Origin: Hyphomicrobiales bacterium | GTDB taxonomy: Bacteria; Pseudomonadota; Alphaproteobacteria; Rhizobiales; NORP267 | Assembly (NCBI GenBank): GCA_021775875.1 | Contig: JAJFHA010000007.1 | Location: 62,001 to 126,000 of the forward strand | Direction of reading: 5' to 3' | DNA: 64,000 bases | Shown: positions 2,698 to 51,498 of the stretch, piece after piece | How the letters are laid out: every line of letters starts with the position of its first letter | How positions within the stretch are numbered: position 1 is the stretch's first letter | Translations under genes and position numbers: made by a program | The notes under the pieces: model-generated | Database searches by the model: none | The model's input: only the letters and a program-made list of their open reading frames with translations | What the model was told of the DNA's origin: nothing

Positions 2698-2902
2698 GAT
2701 TTTTGTCTGGCGTAACCTTTTCCGCAAATATCTGCAAGATGCAAACAATTCAAATATCCAAAATCAACACGCTGATCAGGCCTGAAAATCCTGCTAATCC
2801 CGGATTTTAGGCCATTTATCCCGGTTGACATAACAGAGCCTGCGCTAAAAAATGTTGCGCGGGTTCTTCAAACAAAATCGCAGAAACCTGACGGAGGAAA
2901 AC

Positions 2903-4219
2903 ATGCTAAGCGCAGAGCAGAACAAACAAATCACCGAGATTGGCCCCGGCACCCCGGCAGGCAAACTGTTGCGCAATTATTGGCAACCCGTTGCCCTTGT
3001 TGAAGAACTTGAAACCACCCGCCCGGTCAAATATGTGCGCATGTTCGGCGAAGACCTTGTTCTCTTCAAAGGTGAGGACGGCCGCTACGGATTGATGGAC
3101 CGCCATTGCCCCCATCGCGGTGCCGATCTTTGTTTCGGACGGCTTGAAGATGGCGGCCTGCGCTGCCCGTTCCACGGCTGGTTGTTTGATGTGGATGGCA
3201 ATTGTCTGGAGATGCCGGCCGAGCCGCCAGAGCGCAAATTCCATGAAAAACTCAAAGCCACCGCCTATCCGTGTATTGCCCGCAGCGGCATTATTTTTGG
3301 CTATCTGGGTGAAGGCGACGCACCGCCCCTGCCGGCATTTGATTGCCTCGATGCGCCGGAAGATTACACTTTCGCCTTCAAAGGCCTCAACGAATGTAAC
3401 TGGTTGCAGGCGGTTGAAGTTGGCATCGACCCGGCGCACGCATCTTACCTGCATCGTTTCTTTGAAGATGAAAATCCGGAAGAATCCTATGGCAAACAAT
3501 TTCGGGATTCGGTTGCCGGTTCCGGGATCCCGGCCACAAAGGTGCTGCGGGAATATTCGCGTCCTTCAATCAATGTCGAAGAAACCGATTCAGGCCTGCG
3601 GCTCACGACGCTTCGCGAACTTGAGGGCGGCCAGACCCATGTGCGGATCACAAACCTTTTATTCCCGAACGCCTTCACGATCCCTATGTCGGAAGAAATG
3701 AACATCACTCAATGGCACGTGCCGATTGATGATGTAAGCAATTACTGGTTCGCCATCTTCACCAGCTTTGGCGATAAGGTGGACCGCAAAACCATGCGCG
3801 CCCAACGGCTCGAATCCTGTTCCTTGCCGGACTATATTCCGTTCCGCAACAAGGCCAATAATTATGGTTTTGACATCGAAGAGCAAAAAACTTCGACCTA
3901 TACCGGCATGGGCCTGGACATCAACACCCATGACCAATGGGCGGTTGAATCTCTAGGTGCCATCCAGGACCGCACCCAGGAACATCTCGGCACCAGCGAT
4001 ATCGGGATCACCAAATACCGCCGCCAGCTCCTTGGCGCCATGCAAACCATGGCAGATGGTGGCGAGGTTAAAATATCAAGAACCAACGGCCACGAACTGC
4101 GCGGACCCGTCGCCATTGATGCCATCGCACCAAGCGACAATTGGGCCTCAAGTTGGAAAGAAGCCGATTTGAAGCGTCGGGAAAAATCTGGTTGGGCAAA
4201 AGACCCCTGGCAATCATAA
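2903..4219 (+). CDS. Rieske non-heme iron oxygenase, alpha subunit (phthalate dioxygenase/LigX-like)
   Basis: A 438-residue oxygenase component. The Rieske [2Fe-2S] ligands are C69-x-H71 and C88-x2-H91 (CPHRGADL and CPFHGW). The mononuclear iron triad begins at D176-x2-H179-x4-H184 (DPAHASYLH), preceded by the bridging region NWLQAVE. The start is set by GGAGG seven bases upstream of the ATG at 2903; the tracked ORF begins 17 codons earlier without such a site. Such proteins need a reductase, and none is encoded nearby. The next gene, 24 bp downstream on the same strand, is a glutamine-synthetase-like ligase, so the two are probably co-transcribed. Phthalate-type family members hydroxylate aromatics or remove O- or N-methyl groups; the substrate is unknown. 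Confidence 0.88.
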   Translation: MLSAEQNKQITEIGPGTPAGKLLRNYWQPVALVEELETTRPVKYVRMFGEDLVLFKGEDGRYGLMDRHCPHRGADLCFGRLEDGGLRCPFHGWLFDVDGNCLEMPAEPPERKFHEKLKATAYPCIARSGIIFGYLGEGDAPPLPAFDCLDAPEDYTFAFKGLNECNWLQAVEVGIDPAHASYLHRFFEDENPEESYGKQFRDSVAGSGIPATKVLREYSRPSINVEETDSGLRLTTLRELEGGQTHVRITNLLFPNAFTIPMSEEMNITQWHVPIDDVSNYWFAIFTSFGDKVDRKTMRAQRLESCSLPDYIPFRNKANNYGFDIEEQKTSTYTGMGLDINTHDQWAVESLGAIQDRTQEHLGTSDIGITKYRRQLLGAMQTMADGGEVKISRTNGHELRGPVAIDAIAPSDNWASSWKEADLKRREKSGWAKDPWQS

Positions 4220-51013: not shown

Positions 51014-51041
51014 TTGACATTTCTGATTTTTGTTCTAGTTT
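51014..51041 (+). promoter_or_regulatory. promoter of the SOS-box gene
   Basis: TTGACA (51014-51019), a 16-bp spacer, then TAGTTT (51036-51041). The -10 lies inside the first LexA box, so LexA binding would block RNA polymerase. A start site about seven bases after the -10 falls at the first ATG, making a leaderless message possible. Confidence 0.6.
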
Positions 51042-51046
51042 TGTTC
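51032..51046 (+). promoter_or_regulatory. LexA (SOS) box 1, GTTC-N7-GTTC
   Basis: GTTC-TAGTTTT-GTTC is an exact match to the alphaproteobacterial LexA direct-repeat consensus GTTC-N7-GTTC. It overlaps the -10 element of the promoter and ends two bases before the first ATG. Confidence 0.8.
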
Positions 51047-51048
51047 TC

Positions 51049-51498
51049 ATGGTGATACAAGAACAAAAAATGAACGAACAACCCGCATTCCTGTCCGATC
51101 TAGGCCCATCCAGCCTTGGTCAGCCCAATCTCGGATTATATGATGTGGGCTATTGCTATTGGTTCGGGGCCTCGGGCCGGAAATATGTCCATTCGGTTTA
51201 TCGCCTGGATGCGTGGCCCGGTCATGTAGACGCCAATATTATGCTGGTGCGTAATTGCCCAACCGAAGGCCGACAAATTCTCTGGGCTGGTCAGGCCGGC
51301 AAGGTTCCAGGACAATTGTCCAAACAGGGCATTCTCTCGTGGGCCCGTGCAAATAACGCCAATGAAGTGCATGTGCATCTGCTCGGTGGGTCAGCAAATA
51401 TGCGCGACCAAATCACCAAAGACCTGCAACGGATTGCCCGCATTGGGTCTGCCGGTCTTGTGCGCGATATCAGCCTTGCAGACTCAGGCGGCGTTTAA
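51049..51498 (+). CDS. conserved-looking small protein of unknown function, probable LexA target
   Basis: A 149-residue soluble protein (142 from the second ATG at 51070, MNEQPAF). I do not recognise the family. The centre has aromatic-rich LYDVGYCYWFGASGRKYVHSVYRL and NIMLVRNCP, then ILWAGQAG, EVHVHLLGG and a helical C-terminal part DQITKDLQRIARIG. There is no signal peptide or membrane span. Its promoter carries two perfect LexA boxes flanking the start, so DNA damage should induce it. Neither start has a good Shine-Dalgarno sequence. Its last 15 bp overlap the convergent ChaC gene. A role in damage response or division control is inference. Confidence 0.72.
   Translation: MVIQEQKMNEQPAFLSDLGPSSLGQPNLGLYDVGYCYWFGASGRKYVHSVYRLDAWPGHVDANIMLVRNCPTEGRQILWAGQAGKVPGQLSKQGILSWARANNANEVHVHLLGGSANMRDQITKDLQRIARIGSAGLVRDISLADSGGV
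51061..51075 (-). promoter_or_regulatory. LexA (SOS) box 2, reverse orientation
   Basis: GAAC-AAAAAAT-GAAC is an exact GTTC-N7-GTTC box on the minus strand, 14 bp after box 1 and covering the second in-frame ATG (51070). Together the two boxes form a 44-bp inverted arrangement. Confidence 0.75.

Follow-up and report, generated by a model that had tools for sequence, protein, structure and literature searches.

The putative operator region and its gene

A gene encoding a protein of 149 amino acids, with two putative LexA boxes around its start, has been identified in the window, which is the whole stretch of DNA analysed (64 kb, from a bacterium of the order Hyphomicrobiales). The features recognised at the locus are as follows.

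51014..51019, + strand: -35 element TTGACA, read from the sequence; TTGAC recurs in most of the box-bearing orthologues
51032..51046, + strand: putative LexA box 1 (main operator), GTTCTAGTTTTGTTC, exact match to GTTC-N7-GTTC
51036..51041, + strand: probable -10 element TAGTTT by direct reading, inside box 1, with a spacer of 16
51049..51498, + strand: open reading frame of the 149-residue protein, starting at ATG 51049
51061..51075, - strand: putative LexA box 2, GTTCATTTTTTGTTC, within codons 5-9, exact match to GTTC-N7-GTTC
51070..51072, + strand: alternative ATG inside box 2, a less likely start, found in the window's genus only
51160..51201, + strand: conserved N-terminal W-x-G-x-x-G-x-x-Y motif, residues 38-51, with W38, G40, G43 and Y46 unchanged across 24 sequences
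51232..51432, + strand: probable degenerate GIY-YIG-like core, residues 62-128, by homology to a relative with canonical residues (L111), with G81, E106, H108 and D125 kept

The positions and the orientations of the two exact boxes, as given in a preliminary description of this DNA, have been confirmed. The boxes are separated by 14 bp and box 1 ends 2 nt before the ATG at 51049. That description had placed box 1 over the -10 of a TTGACA promoter and box 2 across an alternative ATG. TAGTTT can indeed serve as a -10 element, as judged from its sequence and position, and the ATG at 51070 lies inside box 2. The pair TTGACA/TAGTTT is not listed by a generic consensus promoter scan. The ATG at 51070 is considered the less likely start since it is confined to the genus of the window, in contrast to the ATG next to box 1, which is kept across families. 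Box 2 is kept in the 3 genomes of this genus and is missing from the 2 other gene-bearing members of the family; as it overlaps codons for conserved residues, the fact that it is kept says little when taken alone. The differences to orthologues fall mostly at third codon positions (8/6/31 and 38/33/69 over the three positions), which indicates that the reading frame is a real gene.

The pattern GTTC-N7-GTTC is known as the alphaproteobacterial LexA operator (PMC8565304; PMC12700426), and the operators of the Caulobacter LexA regulon have been described by da Rocha et al. 2008 (cited in PMC9578287). The assignment of the pattern to LexA in the preliminary description agrees with these three reports. 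The gene was not found named among the members of the LexA regulon in the papers searched, and no report on it was found in the open-access literature on SOS/LexA, leaderless mRNA and the operator; it is also not named in the passages on Brucella LexA in PMC6813329.

Chance occurrence and genome-wide ranking of the boxes

Two exact matches to the pattern are observed in the window, where 1.67 are expected by chance. The genome (3.1 Mb in 28 contigs) was scanned and the surroundings of all the exact boxes were examined; 79 exact boxes are present as against 88 matches to the reversed control pattern. The significance of a single box has been rejected as evidence because of this lack of genome-wide enrichment. 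In simulations of 64-kb sequences, about 0.3% contain two boxes within 60 bp. The earlier remark that two such boxes are unlikely by chance thus stands for the pair, the lone pattern being uninformative.

A weight matrix trained only on the boxes of orthologues from other families gives box 1 and box 2 the first and second scores in the window (26.8 and 20.1), followed by a site scoring 13.7. Among the 79 exact boxes of the genome the two boxes rank 1 and 8, and the top of this ranking also holds the boxes of lexA, recA, uvrA/ssb, imuA and comM. The score drops below the lexA box, from 14.5 to 11.9 for the next one. The lexA (L047) and recA (L104) genes are encoded in the same genome, each with a box of its own. 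The genes at the boxes of lexA, recA, uvrA/ssb, comM and uvrB have been identified by Pfam, and imuA, which has no Pfam match, was recognised by eye.

A few other boxes of the genome have also been observed. The box GTTCCTATAATGTTC (1501-1515 of L083, G000:C15:41380-44394) lies between the divergent genes of uvrB and a C5-cytosine DNA methylase. The box ranked 2 of 79 (1501-1515 of L045, G000:C3:204176-207190) is situated upstream of dnaE, and an open reading frame of 33 amino acids with a hydrophobic stretch (1555-1656, + strand), possibly a SidA-like SOS division inhibitor, is found between the box and dnaE. The box ranked 4 of 79 (1501-1515 of L067, G000:C10:115622-118636) precedes the gene of a radical SAM protein. 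The strong box ranked 5 of 79 (1501-1515 of L070, G000:C12:100384-103398) is found between genes of a phage tail tube protein and GTA-gp10, and is followed by two reading frames with no Pfam match (1741-2013 and 2047-2697). The arrangement looks like a gene-transfer-agent-like cluster into which a segment carrying an SOS box has been inserted.

Conservation of the box and of the promoter layout

A homologue of the gene is present in 148 of the 297 genomes of the order, the other half giving no protein match. The family occurs mainly in this order with few matches elsewhere in the class, in which respect it differs from the alphaproteobacterial LexA regulon. The upstream DNA was read for 110 orthologues, and a box was counted if it was exact and at most 400 bp upstream of the codon of the conserved tryptophan. 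About two thirds of the orthologues (72/110) have such a box, as against 0-4 of 110 for seven control patterns comprising reversed, permuted and other-spacing versions. This conservation is the decisive evidence for the boxes of the window. All five orthologues of the window's family carry the box, and its presence is nearly all-or-none within each family. The box is seen in f1 (5/5), f20 (12/12), f22 (7/7), f14 (5/5), f50 (5/5) and f31 (11/12), and is absent from f2 (0/11), f33 (0/8), f34 (0/7) and f12 (0/4). On the protein tree, many forks of which are weakly supported, the distribution of the box needs four state changes. Absence of the boxes in all the orthologues had been named as grounds for refuting the proposal; the box is kept in most of them, and it is only box 2 that turned out to be specific to the genus.

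PlsC upstream and/or ChaC downstream are retained as neighbours in many families, including the box-less f33 and f34, and the genes of these two families are therefore orthologues that have no box. A matrix search of the box-less families revealed no weak box at a consistent place, with partial boxes seen only at L172 and L239. The lexA gene keeps the standard box in most of the box-less families, so the operator itself is unchanged in them. Since many families keep the box and a few lack it, the role of the gene could be approached by a comparison of species in which it is under SOS control with species in which it is not. In five genomes of f20 (L182, L185, L200, L204 and L207) a second, oppositely oriented box begins 19 bp downstream of the first, and its core differs from that of box 2 of the window.

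The promoter layout also recurs among the box-bearing orthologues. The ATG follows the box by 1-2 nt in 44 of the 72, position 5 of the box is usually preceded by TTGAC at a distance of 16-18 nt, and the positions from 5 onwards read T-A-n-n-T-T in most of the orthologues, which corresponds to the -10 site. A transcription start 5-8 nt after the -10 falls at the ATG, and the mRNA is hence predicted to be leaderless, starting in the window from about the ATG at 51049. Given this usual layout, in which the -10 lies within the box and the ATG directly behind it, the promoter of the leaderless mRNA should be blocked by LexA. Family f31 is arranged differently: 82-93 nt separate the box from the ATG downstream, and the box mostly has a TTGAC of its own.

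The GTTC repeats could in principle be a constrained promoter, that is a -10 region that does not bind LexA. The overlap of box 1 with the -10 and the lack of genome-wide enrichment of the pattern are in keeping with such a possibility. A sigma-70 promoter, however, does not include the GTTC flanks, the distant box of f31 is not accounted for, the controls at other spacings are as rare as stated above, and a single matrix ranks the boxes of lexA, recA and imuA together with that of the window. A promoter constraint of this kind is therefore regarded as very improbable.

The gene is, on the basis of these comparisons, very probably under the control of LexA. As in the alphaproteobacterial SOS regulon, the same operator is placed over the promoter, and lexA, recA and imuA of the same genome have their boxes. 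The earlier proposal of a new member of the SOS regulon is thus favoured by the boxes of the orthologues and by those of lexA and recA. In the undamaged cell LexA would occupy box 1, over the -10 and ending just before the start codon, and would block RNA polymerase; in the genus of the window, box 2 at the beginning of the coding region may serve as an additional LexA site. Upon DNA damage, RecA filaments would promote the self-cleavage of LexA, and the leaderless mRNA would then be made and translated. If this is true, the gene is an SOS gene conserved across much of a large order, the Hyphomicrobiales, and unnamed in the literature searched, and the placing of the box at the start codon of a predicted leaderless mRNA represents a simple and testable design.

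The protein and its probable relationship to GIY-YIG nucleases

The protein had been described as uncharacterised and without a known family, and the searches agree with this: no Pfam, NCBIfam or defence-library family has been found for it, the matches in PHROGs and Pfam being weak. The Pfam families DUF6610 and DUF7443 were rejected, as their matches are below the cut-off and limited to one or two members. No relatives were found among the viral contigs and phages searched or among the solved structures. The AlphaFold2 models from a single sequence and from two sequences have mean pLDDT of 42.5 and 37.1 and are too poor for a fold search. In an alignment of 24 sequences the residues G81, E106, H108 and D125 are invariant along with the four of the N-terminal motif.

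The relationship to the GIY-YIG superfamily has been recognised through intermediates. Profile A1 finds L111 at 2.5e-19, and L111, which keeps the canonical GIY-YIG residues, finds the gene of the window at an E-value of 1.2e-7. L111 and two further canonical relatives, L032 and L152, match the GIY-YIG profiles with E-values of about 1e-6 and probabilities of 88-91% (hhalign), and form a bridge to the protein of the window. The profile of the family alone is not significant against the GIY-YIG profiles (probability about 1%, hhalign), so that the assignment rests on these intermediates; against the UvrC profile its probability is 0.3% (hhalign). In the alignment with the superfamily (PF01541, PF20815) a strand, the YIG-like strand, a helix, a strand and a helix follow one another in the same order. 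The protein of the window differs from the superfamily in having no Pfam match and in the loss of the catalytic Tyr, Arg and Asn. These comparisons make a degenerate homologue of GIY-YIG proteins the probable identity of the protein.

The canonical relatives carry Tyr, Tyr/Phe, Arg, Glu and Asn. Nearly all of the 110 orthologues have lost the tyrosine of YIG, the arginine of the helix and the asparagine, and 40 still have the glutamate, while the YIG glycine, the E-x-H and the helix aspartate are retained. In the protein of the window the helix glutamate is replaced by lysine. It therefore has neither the catalytic Tyr, Arg, Glu and Asn of an active GIY-YIG nuclease nor the residues of a GIY-YIG domain of the Cho/UvrC type. 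Since the Tyr, Arg and Asn of the canonical relatives are almost all gone, the protein is probably a GIY-YIG-like protein that does not cut.

Cho (YdjQ) of E. coli is an SOS-induced GIY-YIG nuclease related to UvrC. The protein of the window is likewise probably SOS-controlled with a GIY-YIG-type core; Cho, in contrast, keeps the catalytic residues, and the N-terminal motif of the window protein is different. An active nuclease under LexA control with a Cho-like SOS role would need a rearranged site built on E106-x-H108 and D125. The near-invariance of these three residues, the glutamate of the last helix kept in a part of the orthologues and the existence of relatives with canonical residues are consistent with such a site. 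Nearly all members, however, have lost the tyrosine of YIG as well as the arginine of the helix and the asparagine, and the window protein has lysine at the position of the helix glutamate; this argues against an active nuclease and makes it quite unlikely.

Small effectors such as SidA of Caulobacter are present in the SOS regulons of alphaproteobacteria. On this general ground the product may, instead of being a repair factor, inhibit cell division or growth or counteract foreign GIY-YIG nucleases; such a role is also favoured by one of the relatives with canonical residues, whose gene is flanked by transposase genes on a conjugative plasmid. The family has no conserved neighbouring gene besides PlsC and ChaC, and the window protein has no match in the defence library, and a LexA-controlled effector of this type is hence held to be unlikely.

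A non-cutting role in the damage response is suggested tentatively. Most likely the product would bind DNA structures or a repair nuclease without cutting, and it could, for example, regulate UvrC or shield branched DNA. Taken as a whole, and with the weight on its regulatory and homology parts, the reading of the gene as a member of the SOS regulon with a degenerate GIY-YIG-like product of non-cutting role is considered moderately probable. A catalytically dead GIY-YIG domain related to mobile GIY-YIG nucleases might have been recruited to the SOS response in much of the order to act without cutting, from a leaderless promoter blocked by LexA; this is put forward as a possibility. If true, a nuclease fold would have been put to an unusual use.

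The relative from a plasmid (pCC829_3) of Bradyrhizobium barranii (L032, WP_231146028.1) is annotated as a GIY-YIG nuclease. It is homologous to the protein of the window over the W-x-G-x-x-G-x-x-Y motif and the core, with 27.5% identity and an E-value of 4e-4. It differs in keeping the canonical residues and in the location of its gene between transposase genes, and no exact LexA box is found in the 300 bases upstream. The annotated coding sequence (3049-3363) omits the conserved W-x-G-x-x-G-x-x-Y motif, and the open frame (2887-3363) reaches upstream of it.
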